Below, one piece after another: positions 3,626-26,439 of a stretch of DNA of 49,359 bases. Numbering within the stretch: the stretch's first letter is position 1; every line of letters begins with the position of its first letter. Location of the stretch: contig JAJZYZ010000013.1 in the NCBI GenBank assembly GCA_021797815.1, positions 1 through 49,359 on the forward strand. The letters run 5' to 3'. The DNA comes from Bacillota bacterium. GTDB taxonomy: Bacteria > Bacillota > Sulfobacillia > Sulfobacillales > JAIMBI01. Both the position numbers and the translations under genes were made by a program. Under the pieces are notes generated by a model. The model made no database searches. It had not been told where the DNA came from and saw only the letters and a program-made list of their open reading frames with translations.

Positions 3626-4852
3626 ATGGCATCGGACACGCTTAACAAGGCCCTTAACGTGATCAATGTCGAGCGGCGGGGTACCGGGGTTGAGACGCGC
3701 CGCACCTTTACGCCGGACCCCGAGCAAGCCCAGGACGAAGACTTGCGCGAAGCCGTCCTGGAGCTGGAGCGCGAGGGCGAGTGGATCGTGCAGCGGGTGC
3801 CGGAGCCGTACTACGAGGCGGGCACCAAATACGGCCGCAAGAAGAAGATTCCCTACGAGAAGACGTGGCACCATAAAAGTTGCGGCCAGTGCGGGCACAT
3901 CCCCGGGTACTCCACCTCCATCTTCTGGTTGAACCGGGTCCTCGGCTACGACTATTTCGACCCCCGCGACCAGACCTCGTGCACGGCCTGGAACTATTAC
4001 GCCTCCGCCACTTCCAACCAGGCCGCCCAGGCGGCGGTCGCGATGCGGAACTTCGCGGCGGCCTACGAGACCGGCTATTTTCCCGTGATTCATTGCGGCA
4101 CCAGTTTCGGCCACTACAAAGAAGTGCGGCACGAGCTGGTGCATGACCATGACCTCCGGCGCAAGGTGCGGGCCATGATCGAGCGGCTCGGGCGTCCCTT
4201 CGTGATGCCCGAGGAGATTGTCCACTACAGCGAATGGATGTATGCCGTCCGCGATGAGTTGAAGGCACGGGTTGTCCACGACCTCTCTCCCATTGTCGCG
4301 ACCGTCCATCCCGCCTGCCACTACTACAAACTGCAGTCGGGCGATGCCATCTACGACCCGGAGATCTACGGCGGACAGCGCACCGCAGCCGTGACGGCCG
4401 TGGTCCAGGCGATGGGGGCGGAGGTGGCCGATTACTCCACCTGGTATGACTGCTGTGGATTTGGCTTCCGCCACATCCTGGTCCAGCGCGACTTCACCCG
4501 CAGCTTTGCGACCCTCCGCAAGATTGAGGTGATGAAGCAGGAGGCCAACCCGGATGTGGTGCTGACCCACGACACCGGCTGTGTGACCTCGCTCGACAAG
4601 AGCCAGTTTGCTGCCCAGGCCCACAACCGCAGCGTGGGCGTGCCGGTGATGTCGGAGTCTCAATTTGCCGCGCTGGCCATGGGCGCCCACCCTTTCCGGG
4701 TGACCCAGCTCCACTGGCACTCCACCGACTACCGGCCGCTGCTGGCGAAGATGGGCATCGACGCGGAGCGTGCGTGGGCCGAGTTCCAGGACGACCTGCA
4801 GGAGATTGAGGCGGGGCGTCTCGATTACCTCACCTGGGATCGCGTGCTGTAG
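3626..4852 (+). CDS. hdrB1: sHdrB1, cysteine-rich (CCG-type) subunit of the sHdr complex
   Basis: The protein has 408 residues. Its C-terminal half holds a CCG-like cofactor motif: C231, then C276-C277 (YDCCGFGF), then C319 in GCVTS, where the usual final cysteine is S322. The N-terminal half has a more degenerate set: C86, C89, C119 in SCTAWNYY and C157 in HCGTSFGH. HdrB subunits bind unusual 4Fe-4S centres that cleave disulfides in methanogens; in sHdr they are thought to act on sulfur bound to partner proteins. The ATG at 3626 (MASDTL) is preferred over earlier starts because the AGAGGGGGGA site lies 6-8 bases before it. The close spacing to hdrC1 and hdrA supports one complex. Confidence 0.92.
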   Translation: MASDTLNKALNVINVERRGTGVETRRTFTPDPEQAQDEDLREAVLELEREGEWIVQRVPEPYYEAGTKYGRKKKIPYEKTWHHKSCGQCGHIPGYSTSIFWLNRVLGYDYFDPRDQTSCTAWNYYASATSNQAAQAAVAMRNFAAAYETGYFPVIHCGTSFGHYKEVRHELVHDHDLRRKVRAMIERLGRPFVMPEEIVHYSEWMYAVRDELKARVVHDLSPIVATVHPACHYYKLQSGDAIYDPEIYGGQRTAAVTAVVQAMGAEVADYSTWYDCCGFGFRHILVQRDFTRSFATLRKIEVMKQEANPDVVLTHDTGCVTSLDKSQFAAQAHNRSVGVPVMSESQFAALAMGAHPFRVTQLHWHSTDYRPLLAKMGIDAERAWAEFQDDLQEIEAGRLDYLTWDRVL

Positions 4853-4869
4853 ACAAGGGGGCAAGCCAG

Positions 4870-5934
4870 ATGGCGGTGGCAGAGCGGCTCTTGGTGATTG
4901 GCGGGGGCCCGGCGGGTCTGGAGGCGGCACGGGGGGCGGCGGACCTCAATCGGCCGGTGCTGCTGGTCGAGGCCCGCGACACGCTGGGCGGGACACCCTG
5001 GGAATCGTACGCGACCCTCACCCCCCATCTGAAGCCCACCAAAGAGATCATGGCCGGCATGCTGACGGCGGTGGAAGATCACCCGCTGGTGGATGTTCGC
5101 CTGAGCACCCGGGTCGTGGCCCGAGAAGGGGAGGCCGGCCGGTTTCTGGTCACCCTGGAGGCGGCCGACGGCAGCCGGCAGGTGGAAGAGGTCGGCGCGG
5201 TGGTGGTGGCTACCGGCTTTCAGCACTTCGATCCCGGGCGCGAAACCCAGATGTACGGGTACTACGAGTACGACGACGTCATTACGCTCGTGGACGCCGA
5301 GCGGATGATGCAGGCCGGCAAGGTGGTGCGGCCGTCCAACGGCGAGCCGCCCGCGCGGGTGGCCTTCATCCAGTGTGTGGGCTCGCGCGACCGCCACATC
5401 GGCAACAAATACTGCTCCAAAGTCTGCTGTGGCATCGCGTCCAAGCAGTCCATCGAGATAAAGCATCTCCTGCCCGATGCCAAGGTCTTCATCTTCTACA
5501 TCGACATGCGCATGTACGGCTTCTGGGAAGACCAGCTCTACTGGCGCGCGCAGGAAGAGCACAAGGTGAACTACATTCGCGGCATCGTCACCGAGGTGAT
5601 CAAGAAGGGCGACCAGCTGCTGTTGAAGGGCGAGGACACCACCATGGGACGCCCCATGGAGGTGCTGATGGATCTGGTGATCCTGTCGGTGGGCATGGAG
5701 CCCTCGGCCGGCACTTTGGAGATGGCCCGCGTCTTTGAGATTCCTCGCGAGGAGCACGGATTTCTCGCCACCGTGGGTGAACCGCTTGACACCGTGACCA
5801 CGCCGGTGGCCGGCGTGTTTGTGGCCGGGGCGGCGGCGGGACCGAAAGACCTGGAGGACAGTGTCTCGATGGGAGGGGCGGCCGCCATGAAAGCCGTGGG
5901 CCTGCTCTCCCGGATGAGCCGGACCCCGGCATGA
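4870..5934 (+). CDS. hdrA: sHdrA, FAD-binding core subunit of the sHdr complex
   Basis: The protein has 354 residues. A dinucleotide-binding fold opens it (VIGGGPAGLEAARG, residues 9-22), a second flavin motif lies near residue 115 (VVVATGFQHF), and the C-terminus has GVFVAGAAAGPKDLEDSVSMGG, typical of HdrA. The iron-sulfur site specific to the HdrA family is present: C169 in IQCVGSRD and C182, C186 and C187 in YCSKVCCG. The length fits the short sHdrA, which lacks the extra ferredoxin domains of methanogenic HdrA. The ATG at 4870 follows AAGGGGG. The stop codon overlaps the start of the next gene (ATGA), indicating translational coupling. Confidence 0.94.
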   Translation: MAVAERLLVIGGGPAGLEAARGAADLNRPVLLVEARDTLGGTPWESYATLTPHLKPTKEIMAGMLTAVEDHPLVDVRLSTRVVAREGEAGRFLVTLEAADGSRQVEEVGAVVVATGFQHFDPGRETQMYGYYEYDDVITLVDAERMMQAGKVVRPSNGEPPARVAFIQCVGSRDRHIGNKYCSKVCCGIASKQSIEIKHLLPDAKVFIFYIDMRMYGFWEDQLYWRAQEEHKVNYIRGIVTEVIKKGDQLLLKGEDTTMGRPMEVLMDLVILSVGMEPSAGTLEMARVFEIPREEHGFLATVGEPLDTVTTPVAGVFVAGAAAGPKDLEDSVSMGGAAAMKAVGLLSRMSRTPA

Positions 5935-19768: not shown

Positions 19769-20647
19769 TTAGGCCGAAGACTCCGCCGACGGGCGGGCCC
19801 GCACATCGGTGTGAAACCACCGGTCGTATGAGACGGCGGCCAGGTAAAACACGGCGGCCACGGTCGTGACCACAAATCCGTTTGGGAGTCCGGTGTCGTA
19901 CGCGACCCAGATTGAGAGCCACACGGTGGCCACGGCGATGCCCATCGACCAGGCCGCCATCTTAAGCGGGCGATCAGACAGGCGCCTGGCTGCCGCCGCC
20001 GGCCCCACCAGGAGCGCGAACGACAAGAGGGCTCCCACCACCGGCACCGTGAGGGCGGCCGCGGCCGCCACCATGGCCATGAAGCCGACCCGCATCAGGC
20101 CCTCCGGGACCCCGCGGGCGGCCGCCGTCTCGGGGGTGACGGTGTAAAAGAGGAGCGGGCGGAAGAGGACGCCCACTCCAAGCGCGAGCACCACCGCCAG
20201 CACGCCGATCTGGATGGTCTGCGCGGCGCTGATGCCGACCAGCTGGCCAAACAGGAGCGCAAACACGGCCGGGCCGTACGCGTTGCCCACCGTGAGCAGG
20301 AGATCGCCGATGCCGAGGACGGCGGCCAGGAGGAGGGCGGTCAGAACACCCGGACTGCCGATGCCGCGCTGGTCGCGCCGTTCGAGGGTGCCCAGCAGGA
20401 GGGCCATGCCGAGCGCGCACACCGCCATCCCTAAGACCGAGCTCACCCCCACCAGAAACGCGGCGGCAGCCCCGGTAAACGCCGCCCGGGGGATGGCGTG
20501 GGCGGCGAAGGTGCCGCCGCGGAGGTTCACAAACACGCCCACCAGGCCCGACATGAGAGCAATCGCGGTTCCCGCGATCCAGGCGTGCACCATGAAGGCG
20601 GCAGATATGAGGCCGGGCGGAAACAGGGCCCCGAAGAGGACGCTCAT
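19769..20647 (-). CDS. Metal ABC transporter permease (ZnuB/MntB family), second permease
   Basis: The 292-residue permease of the ABC-3 family has about eight hydrophobic segments. Family features are GLVGVFVNLRGGTFAAHAI near the N-terminus (equivalent to LRRMAFFGDTLSH) and ALTVPVVGALLSFALLVGPAAAARRLSDRP near the C-terminus. The His/Asp of the canonical motif are partly replaced (FAAHAIPRAAFTGAA). It overlaps the preceding permease gene by four bases (ATGA). With its partner permease it likely forms a heterodimeric channel for Zn or Mn uptake. Confidence 0.85.
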   Translation of the reverse strand: MSVLFGALFPPGLISAAFMVHAWIAGTAIALMSGLVGVFVNLRGGTFAAHAIPRAAFTGAAAAFLVGVSSVLGMAVCALGMALLLGTLERRDQRGIGSPGVLTALLLAAVLGIGDLLLTVGNAYGPAVFALLFGQLVGISAAQTIQIGVLAVVLALGVGVLFRPLLFYTVTPETAAARGVPEGLMRVGFMAMVAAAAALTVPVVGALLSFALLVGPAAAARRLSDRPLKMAAWSMGIAVATVWLSIWVAYDTGLPNGFVVTTVAAVFYLAAVSYDRWFHTDVRARPSAESSA

Positions 20648-21543
20648 GGCGTGGAGCTCCTGTCGCCGGGAAGTGTGCGACGGTCATGGCGTGTCCGCAG
20701 TGTGACCGCCAGGTAGCCGAGCAGGATGAGAGTGCTGATAAAGAAGCTGTCGGGCCAGCCCCGTCCGGCCGGCGGCCAGTAGAAGCTGTCATAGGCCAGC
20801 AGGATGCCGAGACTCGTCGCCGCCACCCCCACCACGGCGGCCACTCCGAGCCGGAGTCCCGGGCGTGAGGTGAGGCGCACGGCAATGGCGGCCGGACCCA
20901 CGATGAGGGCGGTGCTGAGCAAGGCGCCCACCATGAGGGCCGCCTGCTCCACGGCGGCTACCACCACCACCAGGTAGAGGAGGTTGATGAGGCGAAGCGG
21001 GATGCCCCGCGCCCGCGCCACCTCGGGGATCACCGACACGTAGAGAAGCGGGCGGTAGATGAAGGTGAGAAGCGCCACCGTCCCCAGCGACAGGAGTCCC
21101 ATCGACGGCAGCAGGGCGGGGTTGATGGTGAAGATGGATCCGAACAGTACGGTCTGGGTGATGTTGGCGTTGGAGGTGGTGGTCGTGATGAGGTACAGGA
21201 AGAGGGCGCCGAAACCAAGCGCCGTCGCCAGCACGATGCCGGTTGCCACATCCCGCCCGCGGCTCTCACTGAGACCGGCGTCGGCCAGGGCCCCGGATAC
21301 GAACCCGCCGGCCAGAAAGCCCCACAGCACCTGCACGCCCACGAGGGCGGCGCCGGCGCCGCCGGCCGCGCCCACGTCGCTCAGGGCGTGACCCAAAAAC
21401 GCCTGCCCCCGAATCACGACGAAAATGCCCACAAGCCCGTTGGCCACCGCCACGATGGCCCCCATCAGGAGGGCGGTGCGGACGGCCGCGCTCTGGAAAA
21501 ACCCGGGCGCCACCAGCGCATGGAGGATCAGAGCCTCACGCAT
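20644..21543 (-). CDS. Metal ABC transporter permease (ZnuB/MntB family), first permease
   Basis: The 299-residue ABC-3 permease has eight or nine hydrophobic segments. The motif VVIRGQAFLGHALSDVGAAG (about residues 45-64) is the family hallmark and is more canonical than in the second permease. AALMVGALLSTALIVGPAAIAVRLTSRPG lies near the C-terminal end. The ATG at 21543 (MREALILHALV) is chosen because GGGAGGCGGCG directly precedes it; upstream in-frame starts would lie inside the ATPase gene. The start overlaps the ATPase stop by eight bases. Confidence 0.88.
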   Translation of the reverse strand: MREALILHALVAPGFFQSAAVRTALLMGAIVAVANGLVGIFVVIRGQAFLGHALSDVGAAGGAGAALVGVQVLWGFLAGGFVSGALADAGLSESRGRDVATGIVLATALGFGALFLYLITTTTSNANITQTVLFGSIFTINPALLPSMGLLSLGTVALLTFIYRPLLYVSVIPEVARARGIPLRLINLLYLVVVVAAVEQAALMVGALLSTALIVGPAAIAVRLTSRPGLRLGVAAVVGVAATSLGILLAYDSFYWPPAGRGWPDSFFISTLILLGYLAVTLRTRHDRRTLPGDRSSTP

Positions 21544-22450
21544 CGCCGCCGCCTCCCGGCTGGGACGGCGCTCCGTCCGCGGGTCGGGGTCCGCGGCCGC
21601 CGCCCCCATGGTGAGGAGCTTCGGTCGGGACGGCCGCCTCCGACTCGCCGGTCACCACCACCACGCGGCCCTGCACGCGCAGGACCTCTACCGCGTAGCC
21701 GTAAAGTTCCGTCAGGACGTCCGAGCGCACGACCTTGTCCGCCGGACCCACCGCCGCCCGCCCGTGCGCCAGATAGAGGACCTGGTCCATGGAGCCGAGG
21801 AGCGGGTTCATGTCGTGTGCTACGAGAAGGGCCGCGATTCGCCGCTCTCGCACCAGTTGTGCCACCAGCTCCACCGTCTCGTGGGCGCTCTTGATGTCGA
21901 GGTTGGAGAGGGGCTCGTCCAGGAGCAGCACGTCCGGCTCCGCGACGAGCGCCTGGGCAATGAGAAGACGCTGCCGCTCTCCGCCGGAAAGCGCTCCGAG
22001 AGGCGCGTTGGCATAGTGAAGCGCGCCGACTCTCTCTAATATCGCGTCAACCCGCGCCCGCCGCCGGCGGTTCGGGAGTGGAATTCCGAAGCGTTCGCCG
22101 TCTATGCCGAGGTCAACCAGATCCCGCGCCCGGAGCGGGGGATTGGCGTCGCCCGAAAGCGCCTGCGGCACGTAGCCGACACGTCCCAGGCGCCCGTGCG
22201 CCTGCCGGAGGGTCGTGCCCCCGAGCAGCACTTCCCCGGCGCTGGGCGGCAATAGCCCCAGGATGACGCGGAGCAGGGTCGTCTTGCCGGCCCCGTTGGG
22301 GCCGATCACGCCCACAAACTGTCCGGCCTCCACCACAACCGAGATGTCGTCCAGCACCGTGCGGTGGCCGAGCGTCACCCGGACCTGGCGAAGCTCCAGC
22401 AGGGGAGCCGGTGCGCTCCCGGCGGCGGGAGGAGAGTCCGGCCGCGTCAT
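21536..22450 (-). CDS. Metal ABC transporter ATP-binding protein (ZnuC/MntA type)
   Basis: The 304-residue ATPase has a Walker A motif (GPNGAGKTT), a Q-loop region (GYVPQALSGD), the signature LSGGERQRLLIAQAL, Walker B (DVLLLDEPLSNLD) and the H-loop (LLVAHDMNPLL). The C-terminal extension of about 80 residues is Pro/Gly-rich with a HHGGGG patch and looks unstructured. The ATG at 22450 overlaps the stop of the binding-protein gene (ATGA), so it is preferred over a start 69 bases earlier. It energises the two permeases encoded downstream. Confidence 0.92.
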   Translation of the reverse strand: MTRPDSPPAAGSAPAPLLELRQVRVTLGHRTVLDDISVVVEAGQFVGVIGPNGAGKTTLLRVILGLLPPSAGEVLLGGTTLRQAHGRLGRVGYVPQALSGDANPPLRARDLVDLGIDGERFGIPLPNRRRRARVDAILERVGALHYANAPLGALSGGERQRLLIAQALVAEPDVLLLDEPLSNLDIKSAHETVELVAQLVRERRIAALLVAHDMNPLLGSMDQVLYLAHGRAAVGPADKVVRSDVLTELYGYAVEVLRVQGRVVVVTGESEAAVPTEAPHHGGGGRGPRPADGAPSQPGGGGDA

Positions 22451-23400
22451 GGGAGTCCCACCGTGGACTTGTGCGAGGACAGCGCCTTCATAAAGGCGGC
22501 CGTCTCCGCCTGCATCCACTGCTGGTAGTTGTAGTGCGGCGGCATCGTCTCGTATACGCCCACGACCGGCACGTGATACTGGTGCGCGAGGGCGAGGAGC
22601 CGCTCGGTGGCGGCGTCAACCGCCTGACGATTGTAGGCGAGGAATTTCACCCGATGGTGAATGATGAGATTGTCTTCAATCTGGACGTCTTCCGGCGAGG
22701 GGTCGGTGCCGTTCATGACGGCGGACTGCATCGGCCACGGCGTGCGCACATTCAGTCCCGCCGCCTGGAGGAGGTAGTCGGCCACCGGCTCCGTCACCGC
22801 CACCGGGCTTCCGGCGTACCGGGCCTTCAGCCTCCGGATCGCGCCGGCCCACCCGCTGAGGGAGCTTCGAAATTGGGCCGCCCGGCGCTCGAAGTACCGA
22901 CGGTGGGCCGGCTCCAGCCTTCCCAGATCGCGCGCCACCAGAGACGCTACCCGCGCCATCGTCCCCGGTCTGTACCATAGGTGCGGATTCTTGGTGGCGG
23001 GAGAGTAGCCGAGCGCGGGAGCCACCGTGAGGACGATGCGGCCTGGCTTCGGGGCGGCGGCCTCCAGGTGGTTCATGAAACTGTCGTACCCGAGCCCGTT
23101 CTGGACGATGAGAGAGGCTTCCGCCACATCCCGTGCATCGGCCGTGCTGGCCTCGAACACATGGGGATCGGTGGATGGATTGCTGAGAAAGGCGACCACC
23201 GTCACGTAGCGACCTCCCACCTGCGCAACGACATTGGCGTATTGATTCTCCGCTCCGACCACGTCCAACACCCCCGGCCGCGGAGGCGGAAATGTGTTGG
23301 CCGACCCGCAGCCGGCCAGGACGAGAGAGCCGGCGGCCACCGCCGCCAGTGCTCCCCGGCGGAGCCACGTGACCCGGGTTTTGCAAGACGTCCCGTGCAT
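22447..23400 (-). CDS. Metal ABC transporter solute-binding lipoprotein (ZnuA family)
   Basis: The 317-residue protein begins with a signal peptide and lipobox (SLVLAGCGS, cysteine at about residue 31), so it is anchored outside the membrane. The ZnuA/TroA fold is shown by DVVGAENQYANVVAQVGG, SNPSTDPHVFEAS (metal-ligand His), NPHLWYRPGTMARVASLVA (second His) and YNRQAVD. The His-rich loop of classic zinc-specific ZnuA is missing, so manganese or another metal is equally possible. A Trp/Tyr-rich C-terminus (PPHYNYQQWMQAE) is shared with a sub-group of these proteins. It is the first gene of a four-gene leftward operon: binding protein, ATPase, two permeases. Confidence 0.9.
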   Translation of the reverse strand: MHGTSCKTRVTWLRRGALAAVAAGSLVLAGCGSANTFPPPRPGVLDVVGAENQYANVVAQVGGRYVTVVAFLSNPSTDPHVFEASTADARDVAEASLIVQNGLGYDSFMNHLEAAAPKPGRIVLTVAPALGYSPATKNPHLWYRPGTMARVASLVARDLGRLEPAHRRYFERRAAQFRSSLSGWAGAIRRLKARYAGSPVAVTEPVADYLLQAAGLNVRTPWPMQSAVMNGTDPSPEDVQIEDNLIIHHRVKFLAYNRQAVDAATERLLALAHQYHVPVVGVYETMPPHYNYQQWMQAETAAFMKALSSHKSTVGLP

Positions 23401-23529
23401 CCATGCCCTCCTGCGGACCCATTCCTGCCCAGGATTTTTACATGCGATTTATTTGCAGGTACAGCATAGTCGCATCTAGCTGTTTTATCAACACGTCGGC
23501 TCTACGGTCGGGACCCGCGCCGGGCTTGC

Positions 23530-23591
23530 CATCATGATGCCAGATAGACATTGACAAGGCACTGTCATGACAGCATATTAATGTCATGACA
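23530..23591 (+). promoter_or_regulatory. Promoter with palindromic operators for the RHH/DUF4097 operon; probably leaderless
   Basis: The -35 element TTGACA is at 23551-23556, and CATATT at 23574-23579 (17-base spacing) is the best -10. Two perfect copies of TGTCATGACA occur: 23563-23572, inside the spacer, and 23582-23591, where the middle ATG is the start codon of the RHH gene. A third palindrome, CATCATGATG (23530-23539), shares the TCATGA core. The predicted transcription start (about 23586) coincides with the ATG and there is no Shine-Dalgarno sequence, so the mRNA is probably leaderless and autoregulated. Confidence 0.65.
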
Positions 23592-24023
23592 GTGAAGCGT
23601 ACGGCGGAGAACCTCCGCGAGGACCTGATGGCGGTGGCGCGCATTGAGGAGCCGGCGGCTCGCGAGCGTGCGGTCCGGATTTTGGACGGCCTGGTGCCGG
23701 CCCGTCTCACCGCATTTGTAGCCGAGGTGGCCGAGGAGGTGTCCCGGGTTCTGCCCGCTGGCCGGGTGGAGATGCGGCTTTCCGGTGATGACCTGGAGGC
23801 CGTGTATGTGGACGAGGAGGTGGTCCCGTCGCCGCATGAAGGCGACGACAGCTCGGCCCGCATTACCCTTCGTCTCAGCACGGCCCTGAAAGAGGCCGTC
23901 GACGAGGCGGCGGCGGCCGAGGGCGTCTCCGTGAACGCCTACGTCGTGGGAGCCCTGCTGAACGCGACCCATCGCCACGGCAGGGGCCGGGGAAGGCGCG
24001 TCCGGGGGTACGGCCGGGCGTGA
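23586..24023 (+). CDS. Ribbon-helix-helix DNA-binding protein (HicB/Arc-like C-terminal domain)
   Basis: The 145-residue protein has an N-terminal helical part (residues 1-60) and an acidic linker. Residues 91-128 (ARITLRLSTALKEAVDEAAA, then AEGVSVNAYVVGALLNA) form a clear ribbon-helix-helix motif like that of HicB/Arc repressors. A Gly/Arg-rich basic tail (residues 131-145) could also contact nucleic acid. The start codon lies inside one of two identical palindromes, so the protein very likely binds them and represses itself. The gene precedes a DUF4097 gene; such pairs are seen in high-GC Gram-positive genomes. No HicA-like toxin is present, so it is not a toxin-antitoxin pair of that kind. 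Confidence 0.82.
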   Translation: MTVKRTAENLREDLMAVARIEEPAARERAVRILDGLVPARLTAFVAEVAEEVSRVLPAGRVEMRLSGDDLEAVYVDEEVVPSPHEGDDSSARITLRLSTALKEAVDEAAAAEGVSVNAYVVGALLNATHRHGRGRGRRVRGYGRA

Positions 24024-24080
24024 GCACGGGACGATGCTCGTGGCCCGTACGGAACGAGAGAAAGAACAGGAGGGCCTTTC

Positions 24081-24992
24081 ATGGCAAGTTTTGAGACCCC
24101 CGGTCCGGTGGCGCTTGAGGTTCGGAATGCGTGCGGCGTCGTGGAGGTGACCGCGGAGGAACGGTCAGCCACCGAGGTGACCGTCGAGGCCCTCCACCCC
24201 GATGCGGAGGAGCGCGCGCACGAGACGCGGGTCGCGATGACAGCGGCCGACGACGGCGGCTTCCGGGTCGTGATTGAGGTGCCGCGGCCGCAGGGGTGGG
24301 GTGGCCGGCACGCCGATGTGGCGGTCCGCGTGCGCGCGCCCGCGGGTGCGGCCCTGCGGGCGGCCACCGCCTCGGCCGACGTCCATGCGGAAGGCGCGCT
24401 GGGCCGGGTCGGGATTGACACCGCGTCTGGTGACGTCTGGCTCCAGGAGGCGGGCGGCGATGCCGTCGTCACCACGGCGAGCGGCGACGTGAACATCCGG
24501 CGCGTGACCGGATCGCTCCGCGTCCACACCGCCAGTGGTGAGTGCCACGTCGACGAGGTGGCAGGAACCCTCGAGCTTGAAAGCGCGTCCGGCGATCAGC
24601 GGATAAAGATTGTGCACGGCACGGCGCGCCTGCAGGCGGCGTCGGCCGACATCTCGGTGGGGGAGGCGAAAGACGGTCTGGAGGCGCGCACGGCATCCGG
24701 TGACATCATCGTGAACCAGGCCGAAGGCGCGATGCATCTTCGCGCGCAGTCAGGAGATGTGGAGGTCCGCCGGATCGCGCACGGGCGCCTAACCGCCTCG
24801 TCGGCCTCCGGTGACGTCTCTATCGGTGTCGTGCGGGGCAGCCGGGTCCGGGTCGATCTGGACAGCCGGAGCGGGAGTGTGACGTCCCAGATTCCCATCC
24901 ACGAGGCGCCGGATGAGGGGGGTGAGGGTGGACTGGTGGAGCTTGAAGTGCGGACGGCCAGTGGCGACATCCGCATCGGCGGCGTGGCCTGA
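24081..24992 (+). CDS. DUF4097 beta-strand-repeat protein
   Basis: The 303-residue protein is made of about eleven repeats of roughly 18-20 residues centred on (T/S)ASGD(V/I), from about residue 95 to the end (for example DTASGDVWLQ, TTASGDVNIRR, RTASGDIIVNQ). This predicts a right-handed beta-solenoid or stacked beta-sheets. The family includes YvlB-like proteins and putative adhesins, often linked to cell-envelope stress. There is no signal peptide or membrane segment, so this copy is probably cytoplasmic. The ATG at 24081 follows AGGAGGGCC. It is co-directional with the RHH gene 57 bp upstream, which likely controls it. The molecular role is unknown. Confidence 0.85.
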   Translation: MASFETPGPVALEVRNACGVVEVTAEERSATEVTVEALHPDAEERAHETRVAMTAADDGGFRVVIEVPRPQGWGGRHADVAVRVRAPAGAALRAATASADVHAEGALGRVGIDTASGDVWLQEAGGDAVVTTASGDVNIRRVTGSLRVHTASGECHVDEVAGTLELESASGDQRIKIVHGTARLQAASADISVGEAKDGLEARTASGDIIVNQAEGAMHLRAQSGDVEVRRIAHGRLTASSASGDVSIGVVRGSRVRVDLDSRSGSVTSQIPIHEAPDEGGEGGLVELEVRTASGDIRIGGVA

Positions 24993-25041: not shown

Positions 25042-25167
25042 GCGGCAGGCTCGCTTCCCCGGTAGCGTGTCGGCAAGAACGACACAGGGACCGCCGTAGG
25101 CGAGTCGCCCGGCCCCTCCACCCGGGCATGCGCGGGCGGAAGCCCGGCTGTCGTGAGGAGGCCAGAC

Positions 25168-26439
25168 ATGCGGTCAGCGTGGGCGCTCATCCGGCGGGGA
25201 CATAACTTCCGGCGGGTAGTGGGCGCAAGTCTCATCTCCCTCACCGGCGACTGGATCTTGATGGTGGGGCTCATGTACCGCGTGTACGCGGTCACGGGCT
25301 CCACTCTCGCGTCCGCCCTCTTGATGCTGACGGCCTCGATTCCGGCGGTGGCTCTCGGATCGGTGGCCGGGGTGTTTGTGGACCGCTGGGATCGCAAGCG
25401 CACCATGGTGGCGGCAAACCTGCTCCTCGCGCTGGGACTCCTGCCTCTTCTTTTCGTGCACGGCCGCCAGCACATCTATCTCGTCTTTCCGGTGCTGTTT
25501 TTCGAGAACATCGTGCAGCAGTTCTTCTCGCCGGCCGAGCAGGCTCTGTTTCCATCGCTGGTGCGCGATGACGAGCTGGTGACGGCGAACGCCTTGAACG
25601 GTCAGAGCCAGAACCTCTCGCGACTCATCGGATCGGCCCTGGGCGGCGTGCTGGGGGCGGTCGGCGGCATCTATCTGGTCACCCTTGCGGATCTCTTAAG
25701 TTTTGTGCTGGCGGCGGGCCTGGTCACACGGGTGACGGTTTCGGTCGCGCGCACGGCGGCGGGGATGGCGGAGCCGCTCCGGCGCCGTCTTTTCGTGCTC
25801 CGCGAGGAGTGGAAAAACGGAATTCGCATCGCGGCGCGCGAGCGGGTGCTGATGACGCTTGGCATCTTTATCGTCATCACATCGGTCGGCGAAGGCGACA
25901 TCGCGACCTTGTTTGCTCCCTATGTGCGCCAGGTGCTCCACGGGGGGAGCGCGGTTTTCGGCGCCATCGCGAGCGTCCAGGCCATCGGCGGCATCGCGGG
26001 AGGGCTTGTCGCCGCCGCTTTCGGCGAGCGGCTCTCGGCCATGCGCCTCTTCGTCTGGAGCGCCGTCGTCTTCGGTGTCATCGATCTGGGGATCGCTCTC
26101 TATCCCCTGGCCCTGGTCGCCCTCTGGCCGGCGTTTGCCGGCATGATCCTGGTGGGCGTGCCCGCCGCCTTCATGATGGCGAGCCTGATGACGCTCTTTC
26201 AGCGCCACGCCTCCGATGCCTATCGGGGACGGGTCTGGGGCGCGTTCATGGCGCTCGGCGGGCTGGGAACGATTGTCGGCACCCTGGCGTCGGGTCTGCT
26301 CGCAAGCCGGGTCGGCATCATTCCGGTCCTCGCCTATCAAGGCGCCGGCTACGTCGGGGCCGGTCTCCTGGCCTGGCTGCGCTCGCGGGGACAGACGCTC
26401 GGGGCGCCGATGGCGGTCGGCGCGGTGGCGGACGACTGA
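25168..26439 (+). CDS. MFS exporter (MFS_3 / EntS-like)
   Basis: The 423-residue membrane protein has about 12 helices. The motif GSVAGVFVDRWDRKRTMVAANLL is the MFS loop 2-3 signature of the MFS_3 group (permeases related to enterobactin and macrolide exporters), and FENIVQQFFSPAEQALFPSLV with LVTANALNGQSQNLSRLIGSALGG is characteristic of the same group. The ATG at 25168 is used because GAGGAGG lies 6-12 bases before it; the longer GTG form starts within that site. The substrate is unknown; drug or metabolite efflux is likely. Confidence 0.85.
   Translation: MRSAWALIRRGHNFRRVVGASLISLTGDWILMVGLMYRVYAVTGSTLASALLMLTASIPAVALGSVAGVFVDRWDRKRTMVAANLLLALGLLPLLFVHGRQHIYLVFPVLFFENIVQQFFSPAEQALFPSLVRDDELVTANALNGQSQNLSRLIGSALGGVLGAVGGIYLVTLADLLSFVLAAGLVTRVTVSVARTAAGMAEPLRRRLFVLREEWKNGIRIAARERVLMTLGIFIVITSVGEGDIATLFAPYVRQVLHGGSAVFGAIASVQAIGGIAGGLVAAAFGERLSAMRLFVWSAVVFGVIDLGIALYPLALVALWPAFAGMILVGVPAAFMMASLMTLFQRHASDAYRGRVWGAFMALGGLGTIVGTLASGLLASRVGIIPVLAYQGAGYVGAGLLAWLRSRGQTLGAPMAVGAVADD

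Follow-up and report, generated by a model that had tools for sequence, protein, structure and literature searches.

Probable leaderless promoter-operator of an autoregulated RHH-Toastrack operon, with tandem boxes ending on the start codon

The sequence in front of an RHH repressor gene of a Bacillota bacterium is, at a probability of about 80% as we judge it from sequence comparison, the promoter-operator of an autoregulated RHH-Toastrack operon, with a leaderless first gene and tandem boxes that are read by RHH dimers. The gene (23586..24023, plus strand; 145 aa; assigned from Pfam, profile and homologue matches) lies in a window of 49,359 nucleotides, the whole stretch of DNA that was analysed. 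Here we show the architecture of the promoter, its conservation in relatives, and a covariation between one residue of the protein and the bases of the operator. The comparison provides a predicted operator, a predicted transcription start and a putative one-residue specificity switch, which can be tested jointly, for a large and so far uncharacterised family of regulators whose members in actinomycetes often go by the name HicB antitoxin and also occur in antibiotic gene clusters. It also offers a clear case of a leaderless gene whose predicted operator and start codon stand in fixed register across two phyla.

Promoter and start codon

In the window the promoter consists of a -35 hexamer TTGACA (23551..23556, plus strand), a spacer of 17 bp, a -10 hexamer CATATT (23574..23579, plus strand), 6 bp and the ATG at 23586. 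The predicted transcription start is the A of that ATG, the seventh base past the -10, and direct reading of the sequence finds no Shine-Dalgarno before the RHH gene. The pattern TTGACA-N17-NANNNT-N6-ATG has a single match in a scan of the 2.9 Mb genome, at the RHH gene. The -35 hexamer is invariant in the six Bacillota promoters of the family, and its position, -35 to -30 from the ATG, is conserved. A first-pass annotation had placed the predicted start on the ATG in a gene lacking a Shine-Dalgarno, which is borne out, and had proposed a leaderless RHH autorepressor gene with its start codon inside the predicted operator, which the comparison of 33 promoters from two phyla supports.

Beyond the window there are 41 homologues of the RHH protein, in Bacillota and Actinomycetota (42 loci with the window). 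They come from the same family, the same class and plasmid records of Actinomycetota, which made up the sampling of that phylum (Streptomyces, Streptantibioticus, Embleya, Tsukamurella and Nonomuraea). Most of them align from residue 1; the many profile matches in the class and phylum that cover the RHH segment alone (for example L010, L011 and L025) were left out, and a phage search returned no homologue in phage.

Dereplication left 33 promoters from both phyla, which were put in register at the ATG in a gap-free alignment. In the relatives the -10 hexamer, mostly CATNAT, occupies -12 to -7; 30 of the 33 promoters have A at -11 and 31 have T at -7. From its end to the invariant ATG there are 6 nt in 30 promoters and 7 nt in the remaining three (L074, L086 and L095), in which the -10 is one base further upstream. 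Beyond about -36, right before the -35, conservation falls off, and therefore nothing indicates a conserved promoter further upstream. At none of the 41 loci tested does the interval -20 to -4 contain a Shine-Dalgarno-like sequence. Leaderless genes are marked by a -10 that starts about 12 bp ahead of the start codon (PMC3160421), and the RHH promoters combine this position with the lack of a Shine-Dalgarno. Because the spacing between -10 and ATG is nearly fixed and relatives have no Shine-Dalgarno, leaderless initiation looks conserved.

Operator boxes and palindromes

The predicted ancestral operator repeats the box TGRYRYCA three times at intervals of exactly 11 bp; 16 of the 33 promoters have it at -29, 19 at -18 and 23 at -7. 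The density of TGRYRYCA over -45 to -7 is about 8-fold that over -200 to -60, and the boxes are positionally conserved in two phyla, almost wholly outside coding sequence. In the window, all on the plus strand, box 1 (AGGCACTG, 23557..23564, register -29 to -22) is a degenerate copy, box 2 (TGACAGCA, 23568..23575, register -18 to -11) overlaps the -10, and box 3 (TAATGTCA, 23579..23586, register -7 to +1) has the A of the ATG as its final base. They match the ancestral consensus at 5, 7 and 7 of 8 positions, a degeneracy that counts against our preferred explanation.

Two identical perfect palindromes, TGTCATGACA, had been reported in the window 19 bp apart, one between -35 and -10 and the other centred on the ATG, and both their identity and their placement are confirmed: palindrome 1 (23563-23572) sits within the 17-bp spacer and palindrome 2 (23582-23591) is centred on the ATG. 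They are the sole copies in the window, for which shuffles give an expectation of 0.01, and a search for TGTCATGACA found no others anywhere in the 2.9 Mb genome. Both palindromes are contained in a perfect 13-bp inverted repeat, CACTGTCATGACA-N9-TGTCATGACAGTG (23560-23594; like the palindromes, strandless); when the 90-bp region was shuffled 2000 times, no shuffle gave more than 12. Each palindrome shares one half with a box: the right half of palindrome 1 coincides with the left half of box 2, the left half of palindrome 2 with the right half of box 3. Both palindromes derive from ancestral boxes that have drifted in the window, where these two box halves each gained a further inverted half-site. 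In the sister species L003 palindrome 2 alone is present, the left half of palindrome 1 not being kept there. The very tight autoregulation proposed in the first-pass annotation is conjectural, and so is any function of the element in the RNA, as a transcript starting at the ATG would contain just half of palindrome 2.

Two further ideas of the first-pass annotation fared less well. The 19-bp spacing does not hold as a conserved repeat unit, since relatives are phased at 11 bp with boxes 8 bp long. The third palindrome, CATCATGATG, is indeed present upstream (23530-23539); it is not conserved in the sister species and is therefore probably due to chance, so we reject it as an extra operator.

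A regulon beyond the operon was likewise considered and rejected. The looser half-site pair TGACR-N9-YGTCA gave only scattered, unshared matches in the family genomes, not much above control, and the genome holds no other TGTCATGACA. Most likely the RHH regulator controls its own operon only.

The RHH protein, residue 94 and operator bases

The RHH protein of the window has an N-terminal domain of predicted alpha-alpha-beta-beta fold (about residues 1-80) and a C-terminal RHH domain (about 91-128). The first 80 residues are conserved; their fold is taken from a weak model of low confidence (mean pLDDT 47) built on a two-sequence alignment. The ribbon reads R92-I-T94-L-R96, and R92, R96, G113, S115 and N117 are invariant in the family alignment. 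With an RHH domain, polar ribbon residues and an SxN helix turn, the protein belongs to the RHH class. By profile its closest solved structures are Arc and Mnt (E about 0.002-0.013), the FNLR ribbon of Arc aligning with the xTLR/xNLR of the family. Pfam matches to HicB, TacA1 and RHH_1 are confined to residues 91-132. Membership in HicAB was rejected, as the HicB N-terminal RNase-H-like domain and an adjacent hicA are both missing, and so was membership in TacAT: no GNAT toxin adjoins, the neighbours being DUF4097 and ZnuA-like genes.

Across the family R92 and R96 are fixed and residue 94 is T, N or S. We scored each operator by the fraction of A-type half-sites (TGAY/RTCA versus TGGY/RCCA in -30 to +1). 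This fraction is 0.50-1.0 for T proteins (n=13), 0-0.43 for N proteins (n=26) and 0.67 for both S proteins; the T and N ranges do not overlap. Thr94 pairs with TGAC/GTCA and Asn94 with TGGC/GCCA. In the upstream background, used as a control, the gap is much smaller (0.44 for T versus 0.27 for N). The Mann-Whitney value for T versus N is 4e-7, which ignores phylogeny, and much of the contrast is one between Bacillota (T) and Actinomycetota (N). Within Actinomycetota a small test of 2 T against 25 N proteins gives p=0.02, and in the T case from Tsukamurella the half-sites are only 3:3.

On the protein tree the residue-94 label needs at least four changes. L073 (S) is nested among N proteins and its operator has shifted too, while L090 (S) and L097 (T) cluster inside Actinomycetota, both with A-type operators. 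L024, an N protein from a relative in the Bacillota class, falls on the actinomycete side of the tree and has a similar ABC gene; for these reasons it may represent a transfer rather than an independent switch of residue 94. Given the covariation between residue 94 and operator base, there is good evidence from the comparison that the RHH protein would itself read the boxes.

Operon partners, alternative readings and known systems

Downstream of the RHH gene lies a DUF4097 Toastrack gene of 303 aa (24081..24992, plus strand; Pfam PF13349, E=1.4e-23). In contrast to the RHH gene, it has a normal Shine-Dalgarno, AGGAGG (24068..24073, plus strand), 7 nt before its ATG by direct reading. A possible third gene encodes an MFS transporter (25153..26439, plus strand; Pfam MFS_1/MFS_3), of which a fragment is also found downstream in the sister species L112. 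According to annotations and tblastn, a Toastrack gene is 3' of the RHH gene in the window and in all homologues checked except L091, a second RHH copy on the megaplasmid of S. cattleyicolor that keeps the promoter boxes and has no Toastrack gene detected downstream. The third gene may be an MFS transporter, ABC exporter, P450 or hydrolase, or nothing may lie close; in Actinomycetota an ABC exporter or other genes occupy the MFS place. As the third gene varies, the core unit is RHH plus Toastrack.

Several neighbourhoods deserve a record of their own. Many plasmid copies adjoin P450, AMP-binding or ABC exporter genes. The RHH-Toastrack pair on pSLUN1 (3935-5397) corresponds to Lun1-Lun2 of the lunaemycin antibiotic cluster of Streptomyces lunaelactis, where both are listed as of unknown function (PMC9866976). 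A genome of the window's class (G096; L024/L110) carries a copy of actinomycete type, in which TGGTGCCA boxes and an Asn ribbon go together with an ABC exporter; this points to a transfer from one phylum to the other. The divergent upstream neighbour of the RHH gene in the window is ZnuA-like and belongs to an apparent metal-uptake ABC operon (19769-23400, minus strand; ZnuA-like protein, ATPase and two permeases). No ZnuA gene was found at the corresponding place in the sister species (L003/L112), where a permease-like frame remains. Between the ZnuA-like and RHH genes a 28-bp stretch with CATGCGATTTATTTGCAGGTACA (23440-23467) is 96% identical in sister L003 (2849-2876), the flanking DNA not being so; it may be a site at which a metalloregulator controls the divergent metal-ABC operon.

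The mRNA could start well upstream and carry a leader, the palindromes being operators of a gene that is not leaderless. Leaderless genes average only about 4% in the Firmicutes genomes where they are detected (PMC3160421), which favours such a leader; against it stand the missing Shine-Dalgarno at 41 of 41 aligned loci, a conserved block that spans the -35 to the ATG, and a distance from -10 to ATG that is almost constant across phyla, and we consider it unlikely. It is somewhat less probable again that the boxes are read by a regulator other than the encoded RHH protein, because the type of operator base changes together with the ribbon residue of the RHH protein, dyads of 8 bp repeated every 11 bp suit RHH dimers, and no second site is shared across the family genomes.

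Slightly less probable still is a toxin-antitoxin locus of type II, similar to HicAB or TacAT, with ordinary antitoxin autoregulation. Its attraction lies in the Pfam HicB and TacA1 matches and in related genes annotated as 'toxin-antitoxin system HicB family antitoxin', but these matches are restricted to the RHH segment, neither HicA nor a GNAT toxin adjoins, and the constant partner is a Toastrack protein of roughly 300 aa. Least probable of all, to the point of being hardly credible, is that the palindromes arose by chance or as a codon by-product with no regulatory role. Short palindromes are common, and the third one is probably of that kind; however, the two identical copies are unique in 2.9 Mb, they belong to a perfect 13-bp inverted repeat, and the box positions are kept in two phyla, nearly all outside coding sequence.

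For the leaderless, autoregulated operon, we infer binding, the mRNA 5' end, the direction of regulation and the signal as follows. RNA polymerase would bind TTGACA-N17-CATATT and initiate at the A of the ATG, yielding a leaderless mRNA. RHH dimers would occupy the tandem 8-bp boxes, one helical turn apart. Since the boxes extend from the spacer across the -10 to the start site, where the first base of the start codon is the last one covered, the bound dimers would repress by excluding polymerase. Since a leaderless transcript offers no leader to regulate, promoter occupancy would set expression of the first gene. The sole clear genomic target of the repressor would be its own operon, and the Toastrack gene would be translated from its own Shine-Dalgarno. 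The Toastrack protein, its ligand, or a sensed membrane or drug stress may relieve repression via the N-terminal domain of the RHH protein, and relief would raise the Toastrack protein and, in some species, the downstream exporter; the part of the Toastrack protein in lifting repression is speculation. A broader reading, which we offer tentatively and regard as somewhat doubtful, is a sensor cassette that moves with varied cargo genes across phyla. Its helically phased RHH operator would have the leaderless start codon built into it, and its Toastrack protein would work as an antirepressor by way of the N-terminal domain of the RHH protein, so that stress from drugs or on the envelope would induce exporters or biosynthetic genes.

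In the literature searched, from which subscription journals were mostly absent, neither a phased operator that ends on the start codon nor a specificity switch at residue 94 was found described. Arc and Mnt, the nearest structures, have dyad operators over the promoter that resemble the RHH boxes. They are phage regulators that lack the N-terminal domain and the Toastrack partner of the window protein. The met boxes of MetJ, which uses SAM, are tandem 8-bp palindromes that abut at 8-bp spacing. Their GACGTC core is common to the TGACGTCA variants of the RHH boxes, which are also tandem and palindromic over 8 bp, whereas the RHH boxes repeat every 11 bp and show no hint of SAM.

Closer in gene content is the Toastrack-RHH-ABC operon noted earlier in Actinobacteria, in which an RHH factor accompanies a DUF4097 gene and often an exporter; Toastrack proteins have been proposed to form sub-membrane stress-sensing complexes (PMC11237479). 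The window RHH protein is homologous over its full length to the Streptomyces and Tsukamurella copies. The window operon differs in being from Bacillota with an MFS transporter rather than from Actinobacteria with an ABC exporter, and the parts of that paper available to us give gene neighbourhoods, with no promoter-operator layout seen described in them (PMC11237479). Restriction-modification C proteins also regulate themselves, with a leaderless mRNA and with palindromic C-boxes in the promoter of their own gene (PMC4824078), a design like the one predicted for the RHH operon; they are HTH proteins of an unrelated family that also activate, without phased boxes ending on the start codon. Thus the operon type and leaderless autoregulators with palindromic boxes are already known. 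Leaderless genes as a general class share the exact position of the -10 and the lack of a Shine-Dalgarno (PMC3160421), and the RHH gene differs from that class in that its leaderless start is tied to a predicted operator.
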